Shown piece by piece: positions 16,149 through 26,623 of a stretch of 33,207 nt of DNA (within the stretch, counting starts at the first letter, position 1; each line of letters begins with the position of its first letter). The translations under genes were made by a program, and so were the position numbers. The notes under the pieces are model-generated. The model did not search any database, was not told where the DNA came from, and worked only from the letters and a program-made list of their open reading frames with translations. The DNA lies in the IMG/VR virus record IMGVR_UViG_3300005356_000486, positions 1 through 33,207 of that record. The stretch is one strand, 5' to 3'. The stretch is from a virus.

Positions 16149-17507
16149 ATGAGCCTCAAATCATACACAGCGGGTATAGTCAGTGCCATAAAAGGCAAAC
16201 CAGCCATGATTACAGTGGCTGATTTAGGCTGGAATAAGATAGCGATGGGTTCTACGTATGGCGAGTTCAAGTCAAACGATTACGAAAACGCCTACCCCTC
16301 CATAACGAAGATAACCAACAAGTTCATGAAGATTCGGCCATACGCTGTTAATGCGGATGGCGAGAAAGTCAGTACGACCCCCGCTGTCATCAATGCACTC
16401 TACCACCCAAACAAACTGAACAGTTCAGTGGAGTTCCGTGAGGCTCTATCGCTTATGTACCTCGTGCATCCAAAGACGCACATTCTCGTATGGCGTAAAG
16501 AGGGCGGCAAGATCGTTCCTGGCGGTAAGATTACGGCAAACAATATTGCTGGCTTTTCTTTCATGGAAGGTGTGGCGTGCGTCACTGTTGACGGTAAGAC
16601 CACATACACAATCACCACTCAGAGAGGCAGCGCCACATACACTGATGATGAGGTCATTACGCTCAGGGGATTAAACCCATACCGCATCAACACGGGTGGC
16701 TTCTCGCCAACACAGGCGGCGTGTAAGTGGACTACGATTGATGATTACATTGCTCAGTACCAAAAAGGATTCTTCAGGAATGGCGCAGTTCCATCCGGTG
16801 AGTTTATCATCACGGCCGCCACGGCAAAAGAGTTCAACGATATGGTCGATAAGATGCAGGAAAAGCATCGCGGCGCAGACAATAACAATAACATCATCTA
16901 CACCCATCGCCCTATCGACAAGGCCACAAACAAGCCAGCCCAGGCTCAAGTCGAGTGGGTGCCTTATTCTGTTTCAAACCGTGAACTGTCGCTTAAAGAC
17001 CTGTTCGACCAGGCCAACAAGAAGATCGACTCATCATACGGCGTACCAGCTTCTATCCGTGGCGTTGGCGAAAACAATAACTACGCTACAGCCCGAACCG
17101 ACCAGCAGAACTTCATGGAGAATGTTGTTGACCCTATCGCACTAAAGATATGGACCGGCTTCACTCATGAGCTAAACCGCATTACCGGCGGCCTGGGTGT
17201 GGCTATCTCTTACGACATCGTAATTCCACAGCTTGCAGATGAAGAATATGTCATAGAACAGCGCGACCAGATTCGTGATGAGCGGGTGCAAGCGTGGCTC
17301 GATAAAGGCTATTCCATAACCTCCATCAAGGCATACATGGACAGCGGCGATTTAGAGGACTTGGAGGTAGCAGAAGTTACCGAAGTTACCGAAGATGATC
17401 CAGACGTTGATGAGGGTAATGAGGTGTCGAAATCACCCGACCCTAATGCGCCAATCAAAGCGCAAAACAAAGAGGCAGCGAAAAGCACAAACCCAAAAGC
17501 GAAGTAA
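16149..17507 (+). CDS. portal protein
   Basis: The 452-residue protein matches HK97/SPP1-type portals: an N-terminal region with NAYPSITKITNKFMKIRPYAV, the wing segment LMYLVHPKTHILVWRK, the clip/stem region with YQKGFFRNGAVPSGEFI, and SYGVPASIRGVGENNNYATARTDQQNFMENVVDP typical of portals. It forms the dodecameric DNA channel. The last 60 residues are acidic then lysine-rich. A slippery heptamer lies three codons before the stop, giving a predicted 740-residue portal-MuF fusion. The ATG lacks a clear ribosome-binding site; a TAATTA box 6 nt upstream may indicate a local promoter. Confidence 0.9.
   Translation: MSLKSYTAGIVSAIKGKPAMITVADLGWNKIAMGSTYGEFKSNDYENAYPSITKITNKFMKIRPYAVNADGEKVSTTPAVINALYHPNKLNSSVEFREALSLMYLVHPKTHILVWRKEGGKIVPGGKITANNIAGFSFMEGVACVTVDGKTTYTITTQRGSATYTDDEVITLRGLNPYRINTGGFSPTQAACKWTTIDDYIAQYQKGFFRNGAVPSGEFIITAATAKEFNDMVDKMQEKHRGADNNNNIIYTHRPIDKATNKPAQAQVEWVPYSVSNRELSLKDLFDQANKKIDSSYGVPASIRGVGENNNYATARTDQQNFMENVVDPIALKIWTGFTHELNRITGGLGVAISYDIVIPQLADEEYVIEQRDQIRDERVQAWLDKGYSITSIKAYMDSGDLEDLEVAEVTEVTEDDPDVDEGNEVSKSPDPNAPIKAQNKEAAKSTNPKAK
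17492..17498 (+). promoter_or_regulatory. -1 programmed frameshift slippery site
   Basis: The heptamer C_CCA_AAA is in frame with the portal gene (CCA at 17493, AAA at 17496) and fits X_XXY_YYZ. After it the portal frame reads GCG AAG TAA. A -1 slip enters the open MuF frame. A GAGG at 17472-17475, 16 nt upstream, could act as an internal stimulatory Shine-Dalgarno. No strong downstream stem was identified by eye. Confidence 0.6.
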
Positions 17508-18370
17508 GCCCCGACCCATCCGTTGATGCTGAACTTGTCCCTTACGAGCAAGACATTGAAGCGAAGCTAAACGCTCAGATTGACCGACAGGTTGCACGAG
17601 CCACTGACAACGTAACCGATGAAGCCTCAACCGATCAGGAGGATAACGATTTATCTGAGGCTATTCTGGCTACTCTACTGCTGGCTCTACTTATGCGCGG
17701 CTCTACGCAGTACAACAACGGTATTGGCCTAGCCTTGGCTGCAGGGGTAGATATATCCGGCACAAGCAAGTTTGTTGGTTCAATGACCGATGACGATCAG
17801 ACTCGTATGCTCGAAGTCGTGCAGGGATTCAACAGCGATACCGACAAGGGTATTCAGAAGCTACTCGCAGACGCTAAAGCGGCCGGTAAGACCCCAGATG
17901 AAACTAGGAAAGAGCTAGAAAGCTTTACGGCCCAGCAAGCCGACCGCGTTGAACGGTTCGCCAAGAATGAAGCATGGCGTATCAGTGAGATTGGTGGCCT
18001 ACGGGCTATGACTCAGCTAGATGGTGAGCTTCCGAGTGCTGGCATGTATAAGACGTGGACTGTACAGGCAAGCGCCTGCCCTATTTGCCTGGATTACGCG
18101 GGAATATCAGTAAAGGTAAAACAGCAGTTTTTCGGCGGCATAGATGGGCCACCAGCTCACGTCACATGCCGGTGCATGCTCACCTACTCAGTGGTCAAAG
18201 AAGACGCTACCGGCAAGCTAGAGATGCACTGTGCATCATGTGATCGATTTTTAGGCATTACGGACAGAACGGAAACTAACGACCAGATCAAATGCCCAAA
18301 CTCTAAATGCCGTGCGCTCGCTGTGCCTGTGCTTAGGGTGTTAGTTCAGCCTCTTCACAATAGTAAATAG
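17498..18370 (+). CDS. MuF-like head morphogenesis protein with Com-like zinc ribbon
   Basis: From the slippery site, 290 residues are open in the -1 frame. The segment before the first ATG (17693) looks coding (LVPYEQDIEAKLNAQIDRQV), as at the N-terminus of MuF proteins, but has no ATG, GTG or TTG and the 17693 ATG has no ribosome-binding site. The MuF core is helical, then TWTVQASACPICLDYAG and GPPAHVTCRCMLTY, the family's Cys/His signature. A C-terminal zinc ribbon follows (HCASCDRFLG, then KCPNSKCRA), similar to phage Mu Com. MuF proteins are minor head proteins acting at the portal. Expression as a portal fusion is the favoured reading. Confidence 0.8.
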   Translation, partial: SEVSPDPSVDAELVPYEQDIEAKLNAQIDRQVARATDNVTDEASTDQEDNDLSEAILATLLLALLMRGSTQYNNGIGLALAAGVDISGTSKFVGSMTDDDQTRMLEVVQGFNSDTDKGIQKLLADAKAAGKTPDETRKELESFTAQQADRVERFAKNEAWRISEIGGLRAMTQLDGELPSAGMYKTWTVQASACPICLDYAGISVKVKQQFFGGIDGPPAHVTCRCMLTYSVVKEDATGKLEMHCASCDRFLGITDRTETNDQIKCPNSKCRALAVPVLRVLVQPLHNSK

Positions 18371-18438: not shown

Positions 18439-20373
18439 ATGAAGAAACCATTTATGCAGGTTGCTTCTGATGGTGTTTACGAAGTCATTATAGAGGGCAT
18501 AATTTCTAGCGAATATTGGTGGGGTGATGAATTTACTCCAGACATGGTTCGCCAGGAACTTGCAATCGCAGGCGGAAACCCGATCAGGATTATCATCAAT
18601 AGTCCTGGCGGCGAATGTTTTGCGGGCGCAGCTATCTACAATGCTCTGTTGCAATACCAAGGACGCAAGACTGTACGGGTTGACGGCGTAGCGGCTTCAA
18701 TGGCAAGTGTGATTGCTATGGTAGGTGACGAGATTCACATGTCTCCCGGCTCTACCATGATGATTCATCGTCCGTCTGTGCTAGCTGCGGGGAATGCAAA
18801 TGACCTACAGAAAGCTATCGAGATGCTTTTAGCGCTCGAAGAGACAATCATCCCCATTTACGAGAAACGCACTGGTTTATCGAAGGATGAAATCTTTGCA
18901 CTGCTCGATGCAGAAACATGGATGTCGCCCGAGAAAGCTATTGAGCTCGGATTTGCGGATAAGTTGGACGAAGAACCGGCGCCAAGCACCAATGCCTTTG
19001 ACAAGATTAAGGCCATGCTCACCAATGAGCAGTTCGCCTTTTCTATGTCAGCCGTCCACAAATCCCTAGAGGATTATGTGGCTAAAGCCGAAGCATCCGA
19101 AGTGGAAACCGAAGTACAGACCGAGGAAACCACGGAGCCTGAGACTCCAAAACCCGCAGAAGAAACTGCTGTTGCAACCGAGGAAGTTGCCGAGACTGAG
19201 GAAGTCGAAAGCGTTGCAGAGACGCCAGTGGAAGAGGAAGTGACTGAACCTACCGCCGCTGAAACCAATAAGCCAGTCGCAAAGGTAAATGATATGACTA
19301 AAAATATTGCCGCAGATACTGTTGTAGAAGCACCGGCCCTAGCCGATCCTGCTGTTGCAACTGTAAACAAAGAGGGCGTCACGACTCGTGAAGCCAAGAA
19401 AATGGTTGCACTAGCATTCGCTGCTGCATACAAGAAAGACACTAAAGAATTCAACCGCATCACCGAAGAGTTGAATGCAAAGATGGTGATCGACGGAACC
19501 AATACGGAACTGTTCGGTTCGCAAATCTTTGATACCGACATTCGTAACGCATATCTAAACGTCGGCCGCGTTGGTCAATTGGTTAACCGCATTGATCTTG
19601 AGGGCGCAGGCTCATTCAAGATTCTCGTTGAGGAAGCCGTAACCGCATTTGCCCCAACTTCGCTTGGTGGCGAAAAGGACGTGGACACCCCATCATGGGT
19701 TCCTGTTACCTGGGCTCCACACGAATGGTCGAAGATTGTGCCTTGGCTGGATGGTGTACAGCGCCGCTCACCGCTCGCAATGTACTCGCTCATTGTTAAC
19801 TACATCGCTCGTTCACTCGCTTTGACCGAAGACACTATCATCCTGACCTACGAAGGTGAAACTGTTGACGGCGAAGTGTTCCCCGCCACTGGCCTTGTTC
19901 CAATTTTGATAACTGCTGGCCGCGTAACGTCTGTTGCAAGCTATGACTCTGGTGATGTAATTCGGGCACTTGGCGAGGCTTACGGAAAGGTTAAGAGTGA
20001 TTTGCCTCTGACCATCGTAGCCAACCGCACCACTTGGGGTCTGCTTGCTACTTCCATGGATGCAAATGACCACCCAGTCTTTACGGTAGTTGGCGACCAA
20101 GTTTCTGCCGGTGCCTTGGGCACGTTCAAGGTCGTTCAGTCGAGTGTGCTTGAAGATGGCGATGTGGTCATCGGTGCCCTCCCCGACTACACGTTGGCAA
20201 CTCGTGGTGATGTGGACTACCTATTCAGCCGCGAAGCTACCATCGGTAGCGGTGAAGGTGCGCTTAATCTGTTCACGCAGAACGGTTCAGCTGTACGTGC
20301 TTCTATCGAGTACGATGGCCGTCCTGAGCGAAACACAAGCTTCCAGTTGCTTGAATTCGCGAGTGAATCTTAA
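18439..20373 (+). CDS. ClpP-like prohead protease fused to major capsid protein
   Basis: The 644-residue polyprotein starts after AAGGAAG. Residues 1-190 are a ClpP/S14-type protease: SPGG (55-58) oxyanion segment, GVAASMAS with nucleophile S87, and MMIHRPS with H110. Residues about 210-280 are Glu/Thr/Pro-rich and resemble a scaffold. From about 286 the sequence is an HK97-fold capsid protein, with the delta/scaffold-like helix REAKKMVALAFAAAYKKDTKEFN and the core VGQLVNRIDLEGAGSFKILVEE. An in-frame ATG at 19294 (M286) has AAAGG 8 nt upstream and could yield a free 359-residue capsid protein. Confidence 0.9.
   Translation: MKKPFMQVASDGVYEVIIEGIISSEYWWGDEFTPDMVRQELAIAGGNPIRIIINSPGGECFAGAAIYNALLQYQGRKTVRVDGVAASMASVIAMVGDEIHMSPGSTMMIHRPSVLAAGNANDLQKAIEMLLALEETIIPIYEKRTGLSKDEIFALLDAETWMSPEKAIELGFADKLDEEPAPSTNAFDKIKAMLTNEQFAFSMSAVHKSLEDYVAKAEASEVETEVQTEETTEPETPKPAEETAVATEEVAETEEVESVAETPVEEEVTEPTAAETNKPVAKVNDMTKNIAADTVVEAPALADPAVATVNKEGVTTREAKKMVALAFAAAYKKDTKEFNRITEELNAKMVIDGTNTELFGSQIFDTDIRNAYLNVGRVGQLVNRIDLEGAGSFKILVEEAVTAFAPTSLGGEKDVDTPSWVPVTWAPHEWSKIVPWLDGVQRRSPLAMYSLIVNYIARSLALTEDTIILTYEGETVDGEVFPATGLVPILITAGRVTSVASYDSGDVIRALGEAYGKVKSDLPLTIVANRTTWGLLATSMDANDHPVFTVVGDQVSAGALGTFKVVQSSVLEDGDVVIGALPDYTLATRGDVDYLFSREATIGSGEGALNLFTQNGSAVRASIEYDGRPERNTSFQLLEFASES
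19294..20373 (+). CDS. possible internal start: free major capsid protein
   Basis: Inside the protease-capsid frame, ATG 19294 is preceded by AAAGGTAAATGAT, an adequate ribosome-binding site, and begins MTKNIAADTVV, just after the acidic linker. Initiation here would give 359 residues of scaffold helix and HK97-fold capsid, the subunit needed in hundreds of copies, without equimolar protease. Lambda C/Nu3 is the classic precedent for nested starts. Proteolytic release from the polyprotein is the alternative. Both could operate. Confidence 0.45.
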   Translation: MTKNIAADTVVEAPALADPAVATVNKEGVTTREAKKMVALAFAAAYKKDTKEFNRITEELNAKMVIDGTNTELFGSQIFDTDIRNAYLNVGRVGQLVNRIDLEGAGSFKILVEEAVTAFAPTSLGGEKDVDTPSWVPVTWAPHEWSKIVPWLDGVQRRSPLAMYSLIVNYIARSLALTEDTIILTYEGETVDGEVFPATGLVPILITAGRVTSVASYDSGDVIRALGEAYGKVKSDLPLTIVANRTTWGLLATSMDANDHPVFTVVGDQVSAGALGTFKVVQSSVLEDGDVVIGALPDYTLATRGDVDYLFSREATIGSGEGALNLFTQNGSAVRASIEYDGRPERNTSFQLLEFASES

Positions 20374-23222: not shown

Positions 23223-23270
23223 TAACACCTTAATAATTGTGCGAAAGCATTGACGATCCAGGAGGATTGT

Positions 23271-23750
23271 ATGGAGAGCGAAGTAAGCATCTCACTAAAT
23301 AATATTCAGAATATTAAGACGGTTAACATCGTTGGAATCGGTGTTGTTAGGGTTAGGAAACTTGGCGCCGGTGAGGAATTAGACCTATCGGCCAAAACGA
23401 GGCAGCTCGGCAAACTCGTAGCCGAGCTAAGCGACATGGACTTTACGAAGTTTGATGCAAACAAGCCGGGGGACGTGGGGAAGCTTGCAGAGCTTTCCAA
23501 AAGGGCTGAGGCTATCGCTGACGAGATTGAGGATATTCAGAGATTTGAGTTTGACACCTTTAAGCGGTGCTTCTCTGATGATGAGAACGGCAAGGTTGTT
23601 GACGCTATCATGAATACCCTTACTAACGAAGAGCGAGGAGAGCTGTTCAAGCAGGTATTCGGCCGCAAGAAACAGGTTGATGCGCCTGCTGCCGTTACTC
23701 CGGCTCAAGAAGTCGATAAGTCTGGAGAGGTGACTACCAATGAGCAGTAA
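23271..23750 (+). CDS. tail assembly chaperone (first protein)
   Basis: The 159-residue protein starts at ATG 23271 with AGGAGG upstream; a TTG 21 nt earlier is not needed. It precedes a small overlapping gene and the tape-measure gene, the invariant location of tail assembly chaperones. The sequence is acidic and helical (LGKLVAELSDMDFTKF, AELSKRAEAIADEIEDIQRFEF) after an N-terminal beta part, with a disordered Ala/Thr-rich tail. It would coat the tape measure during tail assembly. Confidence 0.7.
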   Translation: MESEVSISLNNIQNIKTVNIVGIGVVRVRKLGAGEELDLSAKTRQLGKLVAELSDMDFTKFDANKPGDVGKLAELSKRAEAIADEIEDIQRFEFDTFKRCFSDDENGKVVDAIMNTLTNEERGELFKQVFGRKKQVDAPAAVTPAQEVDKSGEVTTNEQ

Positions 23751-24132
23751 GTCATTGCTCGACCTTATGCCCAAAGCCGAAGCTGAAAAGGCAATCAAGC
23801 GCGGGCAAGAACGTATGGCGCGACAACGTGCAAAAAAAAGCGTAGATATTTCTCCTGAGATATATATGGTTGCTGAGTTCGGCTACTACTTCGGGTGGGA
23901 TGCCATGATGGCAATACGCCGGGGGTATACCGTAGAGCCTGGGACCAATAAAAAAGAGCCGCTAACCTTGGATGAGGCGCTGGTTCTGTTGGAAGGTGCT
24001 CGCAAAGTCTGGTACGCAAAGCTTATAGAGCAAGCTCACAGTTCGGTTGTGGGCAATAGTTTCCGTTCTGCTTCAGGGTCATTTGACAATGCCATTAAAC
24101 CTTTTGCAGAAAAGTCGGAAGTAAAGGGCTAG
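23740..24132 (+). CDS. tail assembly chaperone (second protein)
   Basis: The 130-residue frame overlaps the first chaperone by 11 nt, in the +1 frame relative to it. In many phages this product is made by frameshifting, but here an ATG with GGAGAGG about 8 nt upstream is available, a stop lies just upstream in this frame, and I see no slippery heptamer in the overlap. Independent initiation is more likely. The helical sequence (EIYMVAEFGYYFGWDAMMAIRRGY and LTLDEALVLLEGARKVWYAKL) fits a gpGT-type C-terminal partner. Confidence 0.65.
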   Translation: MSSKSLLDLMPKAEAEKAIKRGQERMARQRAKKSVDISPEIYMVAEFGYYFGWDAMMAIRRGYTVEPGTNKKEPLTLDEALVLLEGARKVWYAKLIEQAHSSVVGNSFRSASGSFDNAIKPFAEKSEVKG

Positions 24133-24133
24133 T

Positions 24134-26623
24134 ATGTCGTCGGGAACAACTACAGTTGGGGTTGTAAAATATGATGCAATCATAGATTTGCCGCAGCTTA
24201 AGAGTTCCCTCGCCGAAGCAGACAAATTAGTACAGAAATCATACGATAACCAGGCAAAGGCCGCTAAGAGCGCCGCTAAAGCCTCAAGTAGTCCTGGTTC
24301 TACGTCTGGTGGCACGGCCACTTCTGATGCCGAAGCCCGTGTTGCTGCCATAAAAAAAGAGGCTCAGGACACTGTAACCGCATTGTCAAAATATGCTCCA
24401 CAGGTTCAGAAACAGTTCTTAACCGTTCAGCGGGCCAACAACCAAGTTGCCAGCGCGACCGATAGAAGCACCGCAGCTATACAAAAATATGGTGAAGGGT
24501 CTGTGCAGGCGTCGGCAGCGTCACGATCACTCGGCGTTGCTATACAAAACCAGTCTCAGCAGCAAAATAAGCTGAATGCAATGCTTGATGGGAGCAATGA
24601 GAAGACTTCTAATTTTTCGGGCGGTTTATATAAATCTCTAGCAGTATTCGGCACTGTAACGGCAGCAATTTATACGGTACGTCAGGCTCTCTCTGTATTC
24701 GGGAGCGCCGTGCAGGCTGCCAATCAATACCAGGCTTCACTTACGGGGCTTTCGCGTCTGTCTGAAAGATTCGGTTACGACCAGAATCTTGCGACGCAGG
24801 CTGCACAAGACTTGGCGAGTGACGGTCTTATTACTGTAGCAACTGCCGCACAGGGATTACAGACGCTCCTTAATGCGGGCGTTGGTCTGCCTCAAGCCAT
24901 ACAGCTGATGAAAGGGTACAAAGACCAGGCAGCATTCGGCCGGTCAAGCACTATAGATTTCGATACTGCAGTCGGCAACCTAGCGGAATCGTTCTACACG
25001 GAAAACTCTACCATAGGCAACTTATCTGGTCAGACTGAAAACTGGAACCAAATTCTTGAATACGGCGCCAGTGTGATGGGTAAAAACGTTGACCAACTAT
25101 CTGCAAGTGAAAGAGTGCAGGCAAAACTAATCGGTCAGCAGAAGCTCAATAACGTAGTTCAGGGAGATGCCGCCGTATATGCCGAGACTAACGCCGGAAA
25201 GCAGGCCGAGCTCAATGCTGTTTTGAAAGAGGTACAGCAGACAATCGGTGGCCTTATCAATGAAATCTCTGGTGGCCTTATTGGCGCTCTCGGTGGTATG
25301 AGCAAGGGCACGCAGGATTCAATCATATCCTGGGGCGCAGGACTCGTTACATTCTCGGCATTCGTATTTCTTGTGCCGAAGATTATTTCCGGCATTAAAG
25401 CAATCATAGCTACCATGAAGACGCTGACGATTGCTAGCGCACTATCAAGCGGTGGTTTGACGGTCTTGCTGGGCGTGCTCGCCGGTGTGGCCGCTTCAAG
25501 CTACATTGATCAGCTTACGCAAGGGTTAGATGATGCCGACACATCTGCCGACTCGGCCGCTGGCAGCATAAACCAAATGGATGCTGGGCTTTCAACCGCA
25601 TCCGACAATGCAAAAGATGTCGCAAAGCAACTGAAAAAAATTAGCGAAGAGGCGCAGCAGGCGAATGACGATTACCGGTATTCACTGGCTCAGCTAATCC
25701 AACAGAAGAACGAGGATATAGCATCGCTCACAAAAACCCTTGCCGATGAGAAGAAAGAGTACGACGATTCCTACAATGAACGGCTCGCCTCTTTCAATAA
25801 ATCCCAAAACGATGAGCTTGTCTCGCACCAGGAAAAAGTTAGGGCTTTGCAGAGTCAGATCGACTTTCTGACCAAGTACAACTCCGCAGCCAATAATAAG
25901 CAGGTTGCCGACCTCAAGTTCGCATTGGCGCAGGAAAACGCTCAATACCAGCAAAGCACCCAGGATGCCCAGGATGAGTTTGATACCCAGACGCAATCGG
26001 CTAAGGACCAATACGAAGAACAGCGCCAAGAGCACCAGAAAGAGCTGGACGCCGATCTAGCTTTGCTCCAACAGCACCGACAGGACGTTCTAGATGTCCA
26101 AAACGTTATGGTGCTCGACGAAATTGACTCGCTCAAAAAACAGCGCGACGCTCAATTGCAATCTTTGCAGGAGCAGAGGCAGGATATAATCGACACCCTT
26201 ACGGATGCCGGTTCAACGGCCGGGACTAATGCTGCAGACGCATTCAATAAGGCGTTTGGCGCCGAGGGTATCTACTTCGATACCGCAACTAACTACAAAG
26301 TGCAAAAGGTTAAAGGCCAGACCATTGTTACGCCGGAGTTTGCAACCGGTGGCTTTACTGGCAGTGGCGGCAAATATGATGTTGCAGGTGTTGTCCATGC
26401 TGGTGAGTACGTCTTGCCGCAGGAGCAAGTCAACCAGGCAACCGGCCAACCTGACTGGAGCAAGATTGGTGGCGGTAGCCAGAGCGTTGTCGTGAATCTC
26501 TCTCTTGCGGGTATCATGACATCAACAAAATCAGATGAGCGGGCTATCGCAAAGAGAATGGCAAAACTGATAAATGAAGCTGTTAAATCAAAAACCGGCA
26601 AACCGGCAATAGTAGGGGTCTAA
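24134..26623 (+). CDS. tape measure protein
   Basis: The 829-residue protein is the longest in the window and follows the chaperones. It has an Ala/Ser/Gln-rich helical N-terminus, a hydrophobic patch at about 396-458 with two or three membrane-like segments, and a long charged coiled coil at about 500-690. A C-terminal part follows with FATGGFTGSGGKYDVAGVVHAGEYVLPQEQV, a motif common near the end of tape measure proteins. It sets tail length, roughly 120 nm at 0.15 nm per residue. The coiled coil creates long shadow frames on the minus strand. Confidence 0.9.
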   Translation: MSSGTTTVGVVKYDAIIDLPQLKSSLAEADKLVQKSYDNQAKAAKSAAKASSSPGSTSGGTATSDAEARVAAIKKEAQDTVTALSKYAPQVQKQFLTVQRANNQVASATDRSTAAIQKYGEGSVQASAASRSLGVAIQNQSQQQNKLNAMLDGSNEKTSNFSGGLYKSLAVFGTVTAAIYTVRQALSVFGSAVQAANQYQASLTGLSRLSERFGYDQNLATQAAQDLASDGLITVATAAQGLQTLLNAGVGLPQAIQLMKGYKDQAAFGRSSTIDFDTAVGNLAESFYTENSTIGNLSGQTENWNQILEYGASVMGKNVDQLSASERVQAKLIGQQKLNNVVQGDAAVYAETNAGKQAELNAVLKEVQQTIGGLINEISGGLIGALGGMSKGTQDSIISWGAGLVTFSAFVFLVPKIISGIKAIIATMKTLTIASALSSGGLTVLLGVLAGVAASSYIDQLTQGLDDADTSADSAAGSINQMDAGLSTASDNAKDVAKQLKKISEEAQQANDDYRYSLAQLIQQKNEDIASLTKTLADEKKEYDDSYNERLASFNKSQNDELVSHQEKVRALQSQIDFLTKYNSAANNKQVADLKFALAQENAQYQQSTQDAQDEFDTQTQSAKDQYEEQRQEHQKELDADLALLQQHRQDVLDVQNVMVLDEIDSLKKQRDAQLQSLQEQRQDIIDTLTDAGSTAGTNAADAFNKAFGAEGIYFDTATNYKVQKVKGQTIVTPEFATGGFTGSGGKYDVAGVVHAGEYVLPQEQVNQATGQPDWSKIGGGSQSVVVNLSLAGIMTSTKSDERAIAKRMAKLINEAVKSKTGKPAIVGV

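Follow-up and report, generated by a model that had tools for sequence, protein, structure and literature searches.

We propose that the portal gene analysed here carries a functional and conserved site of programmed -1 ribosomal frameshifting, through which one gene would supply both a plain portal protein and a portal-MuF fusion, and that a short indel has inverted the polarity of this site; we give this reading a probability of about 0.72. The gene lies in a stretch of viral DNA of 33,207 nucleotides (IMG/VR record IMGVR_UViG_3300005356_000486, positions 1 to 33,207), hereafter the window. The slippery site, its phase, the reading frames around it, its conservation in related viruses and the enrichment of Shine-Dalgarno (SD)-like sequences upstream of it can be read directly in the DNA.

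Reading frames at the portal-MuF junction

The portal ORF occupies positions 16,149-17,507 of the plus strand and codes in the zero frame for 452 aa, the predicted short product. It is an HK97-type portal (Pfam PF04860, 91.8 bits against a curated cut-off of 39.1) with matches to phrog_2662 and phrog_12, and it ends in AAC CCA AAA GCG AAG TAA, with the stop codon at 17,505. This end holds the X_XXY_YYZ heptamer C_CCA_AAA at 17,492-17,498 in the zero-frame phase, exactly as an initial annotation of this DNA had claimed. The -1 frame is open from 17,447, directly after its last upstream stop at 17,444-17,446, to the stop at 18,368-18,370, and codes for a MuF head protein (PF04233, 36.0 bits against a cut-off of 29.6). 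When fused relatives are compared with the window by tblastn, their portal part aligns in frame 3 up to 17,474-17,501 and their MuF part in frame 2 from 17,522 or earlier to 18,109-18,337, which bears out the earlier claim that the -1 frame is coding, from 17,522 onward, well before its first ATG.

A -1 slip at the heptamer would add to 450 portal residues the 290 codons, followed by a stop, of 17,498-18,370. This segment is homologous to the fused C-termini of relatives and holds MuF with a C-terminal zinc-ribbon-like part. The component parts thus predict a fusion of 740 residues over 16,149-18,370, the size previously given for it, with the slip-junction peptide ...NPKSEVSPDPSVDAELVPYE. Each half matches a different part of PHROG 2662 (portal protein, a 717-position profile). 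An uninterrupted portal-MuF ORF is present in relatives and absent from the window, where the stop at 17,505 intervenes.

The heptamer is located between the portal and capsid genes, and the tape-measure-sized ORF starts only at 24,134. Downstream of the junction, a ClpP-type protease and the major capsid protein form one 644-aa ORF at 18,439-20,373 (Pfam CLP_protease and Phage_capsid). Two small ORFs at 23,250-24,132 precede the tape-measure-sized ORF in the position of the tail chaperones; they overlap at ATG 23,740 and have no evident -1 slippery site.

Conservation of the slippery heptamer

Relatives were collected from IMG/VR with the portal and its neighbouring genes as queries, which gave about 60 distinct ones. 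In nearly all of them portal and MuF form a single ORF, roughly 660-770 residues in length and larger in genes with inserted domains. The only isolated phages that match over the full length are the Bifidobacterium phages BlindUri1 and BlindBasel1, and portal and MuF are fused in BlindUri1 as well; no prophage relatives were found in the GTDB genomes scanned. The initial annotation had held that the frameshift makes the fusion and that portal and MuF in one frame in relatives would speak against this. Nearly every relative has just this arrangement, so frameshifting is not the normal route to the fusion in this family. What stands of the proposal is that the heptamer looks conserved and selected and that two forms of the portal are likely; what does not stand is their assignment, since the relatives encode the fusion in the zero frame and would obtain the short portal by the slip; the window alone has the inverted arrangement.

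For the statistics we used 55 distinct portal-MuF genes, with L112 excluded, as well as L063, L066 and L082-L084 because no MuF follows the portal in these five. In L082-L084 the portal ORF stops about where the others carry the heptamer. The alignment of relatives, which the initial annotation had suggested as a check, finds a canonical heptamer in the portal phase and in the same linker in 38 of the 55 genes. Shuffling synonymous codons in the same genes (300 trials) gave a mean of 17.5 +/- 3.1 and a maximum of 27, and other 75-aa segments that do not overlap the site gave 4-10 heptamer matches in up to 55 genes. The canonical heptamer is absent from the remaining 17 relatives. BlindUri1 has CCCAAAA in its linker in the phase CCC AAA ACC, and therefore no canonical -1 tandem slip site.

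The heptamer mostly lies 75-111 residues past the portal core and later in L067 and L071, where a domain is inserted before it; in these two and in L118, domains are inserted upstream and the heptamer remains at the MuF boundary. CCCAAAA is found in most genes, and CCCTTTA, AAAAAAA or AAAAAAG, and TTTAAAA are found in others. On the portal tree these types interchange and the site is still slippery, as expected if slipperiness and not a protein motif is selected. The interchange amounts to at least 21 state changes with absence counted as a state. This figure should not be taken as that many proven independent events, since support is weak at many forks of the tree and the linker could have recombined.

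Furthermore, at 12 CCCAAAA loci the same codon is used at shared residues in 87% of cases over the module versus 45% over the portal core. Codon identity is 75% when only the six codons preceding the heptamer are counted, which fall outside the criterion by which these loci were selected. L118 shares 32 identical nucleotides with the window across the cassette, and the two portals are 44% identical. Collectively, the slippery site NEVERTHELESS looks conserved in relatives despite their fused ORFs, although some of this conservation could be due to common descent or to recombination of the linker.

SD-like element and downstream structure

In E. coli, frameshifting is prone to occur on both C_CC.A_AA.A and C_CC.U_UU.A, and an SD-like sequence lying 6-17 nt upstream was regarded as stimulatory (PMC4066793). 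SD-like runs of 5 or more precede 62% of the heptamers, compared with a background of 12% elsewhere in the same linkers. The GAGG at 17,472-17,475, 16 nt 5′ of the window heptamer and earlier suggested as a stimulator of slippage, belongs to this enriched element, but the window run is only 4 long.

We found no significant downstream structure in the window (folding z -1.06). Across the set the mean z of -0.8 is a weak trend, though folding is strong in some, for instance L071 (z -3.8), and in one subset the stem common to seven sequences lacks compensatory changes; a conserved downstream structure is thus unsupported as a general feature. The -1 stop lies no closer than expected from background, so that a nearby stop is no evidence of frameshifting and was dropped as such.

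The linker and its inserted domains

The AlphaFold model of L005 is of modest confidence (mean pLDDT 68). Its portal part resembles HK97-type portals (best match 8fql, E 8.4e-10), and residues 406-438, between the portal and MuF helices, are of low confidence. As the L005 heptamer encodes residues near 423, inside this stretch, a slip would shorten or lengthen the protein within a flexible linker.

Several relatives carry additional domains in this part of the protein. In L067 (2686-5376) and L071 (4467-7091) a 2H-phosphoesterase domain (Pfam 2_5_RNA_ligase2, with a weaker match to the anti-CBASS protein Acb1) sits in the portal-MuF linker 5′ of the heptamer, and since it precedes the heptamer both predicted products would carry it. 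An intein splicing domain is found at the C-terminal end of the MuF part or inside it in L096 (2672-5611) and L107 (4473-7388). The CxxC...CxxC zinc-ribbon-like segment of the window (18,224-18,350) is C-terminal to MuF, likewise in L005; it stands between portal and cassette in L118 and, in the MuF-less L063, immediately behind the portal, and in other relatives a separate small ORF after MuF resembles it. The Com zinc-ribbon family PF10122 has no match in the window, and the control was also without a match.

Proposed swap of polarity in the window and alternative explanations

In the fused relatives a -1 slip would terminate after 3-25 codons and give a product shorter than that of the zero frame. 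The window has its zero-frame stop two codons past the heptamer and MuF in the -1 frame, so that the slip product would be the longer one. Comparison with the fused relatives places the putative polarity-swapping indel in or adjoining the zero-frame end GCG AAG TAA (17,499-17,507).

An unlikely alternative is that the frame break is a sequencing or assembly indel, and that the real virus has one portal-MuF ORF from which the heptamer yields a short portal by -1 slippage. All close relatives are fused in frame. The near-identical contigs L002-L004 carry indels inside MuF that resemble the assembly errors of older data; as the position of the break differs among these contigs, that in L004 lying elsewhere, we discounted the breaks as probable assembly errors. 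Just one further record, L001, has the window indel, but it matches the window without a difference over 20 kb and is therefore no independent confirmation. Against this explanation, single-base insertions and deletions simulated in six fused relatives gave the window layout, in which the zero frame is short and the heptamer leads into a long -1 frame, in only 0.07-0.35% of cases, and the portal-MuF junction is the only frame break among the homologous genes compared by tblastn over about 9 kb. As the layout is rare and no other compared gene is broken, a random sequencing error, which the initial annotation had itself named as a possibility, is unlikely, and the indel is probably real.

It is quite improbable that the gene is truly split, with MuF lost or dispensable and the heptamer a relic. 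L063, L066 and L082-L084 do lack MuF after the portal, and the MuF protein gp7 of SPP1 is dispensable for assembly, though no more than about 25% of virions without gp7 are infectious (PMC6316719). But the -1 frame of the window is intact and conserved to near its end, the heptamer is intact as well, and the indel is placed where slippage would still express MuF.

We give even less weight to a separate translation of the window MuF, whether re-initiated past the portal stop or begun at an internal or a non-standard start. In its favour are ATG 17,693 and an AGGAGG at 17,637-17,642. The initial annotation was right that the -1 frame has no ATG, GTG or TTG before ATG 17,693 and that this ATG has no Shine-Dalgarno sequence; the AGGAGG, which we add here, has no in-frame start codon at a usable distance and is read as coincidental. 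Moreover, a start at 17,693 would drop about 57 residues that can be aligned with relatives, and TTG 17,523 and ATG 17,526, which follow the portal stop, are in the wrong frame. Least credible is that the two products arise by slippage of RNA polymerase and not of the ribosome. Long A runs do occur at the site in L034, L053, L076 and L077, but the window and most relatives have only A4, and the X_XXY_YYZ phase and the SD-like element fit ribosomal slippage.

A model for two portal subunits from one gene

Under programmed ribosomal frameshifting, the family would keep a -1 site in the disordered linker between portal and MuF, and one gene would give a plain and a MuF-bearing portal subunit that share their N-terminal portal. 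In most relatives portal-MuF is read in the zero frame, and a -1 slip, stopping a few to about two dozen codons on, would give the plain portal, which is the polarity of dnaX. A short indel immediately 3′ of the heptamer would have swapped the outcomes in the window, the slip now giving the fusion. Such a swap should change the ratio of the products, except if slippage were close to 50% or the ratio were uncritical.

The portal is a ring of 12 subunits at a single vertex of the capsid. We infer from the sequence comparisons that the ribosome does slip at this site, at some efficiency, and that this may serve to build a mixed portal ring in which only some of the 12 subunits bear MuF. More broadly, the cassette of SD-like element, linker and interchangeable heptamer might set the ratio of plain to MuF-bearing portal in a broad group of uncultivated tailed phages, with a polarity that a local indel can invert because either outcome still supplies both subunits; for this wider reading the odds appear to us about even.

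If true, a conserved frameshift in the portal gene would offer a genetic and testable route to a mixed ring, that is, to the placing of a few MuF or cargo domains. It would also be a case of a recoding site that persists through changes of slippery sequence and a reversal of polarity, and many portal genes of the group would have been annotated with a single product although they make two. The linker site would then be a natural attachment place for portal cargo such as the zinc ribbon and the 2H-phosphoesterase/Acb1-like domain.

Comparison with known systems

A close parallel in the arrangement of elements is E. coli dnaX, which has a slippery heptamer, an upstream SD-like element and a shorter slip product, as the fused relatives do. 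It is a different gene, and its SD-like element is spaced at about 10 nt, whereas the spacing in this family is longer, about 15-18 nt in many cases. Furthermore, the window is without a strong downstream stem and its slip product is the longer one.

Frameshifts in structural and assembly genes are known from several phages, including the lambda G/GT tail chaperones, the T3 and T7 coat proteins, Lactobacillus phage A2, Listeria phage PSA and SPP1 gp17.1 (PMC5009743, PMC6316719). The likeness is that one gene gives two products at a set ratio, with a C-terminal extension on a fraction of the capsid or tail copies. None of these genes is a portal gene, and the available text of PMC5009743 makes no mention of portal or MuF. 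Lambda G/GT sits just upstream of the tape measure gene, unlike the window site.

Portal and MuF joined in one gene, as in PHROG 2662, are also found in Microbacterium phage clusters EA3/EA5/EA8 and EB, where the fusions are reported as unusual (PMC7302621). The passages of that paper on these fusions mention no frameshift, whereas the window fusion needs a change of frame. We found no published portal-MuF frameshift in the open-access literature, to which our search was confined.

A functional counterpart is the portal gp6 and MuF protein gp7 of SPP1, in which MuF binds the portal and enters the procapsid through it in few copies (PMC6316719). The two SPP1 proteins are the products of separate genes and associate by binding, whereas in the family described here MuF is predicted to be fused to some of the portal subunits.
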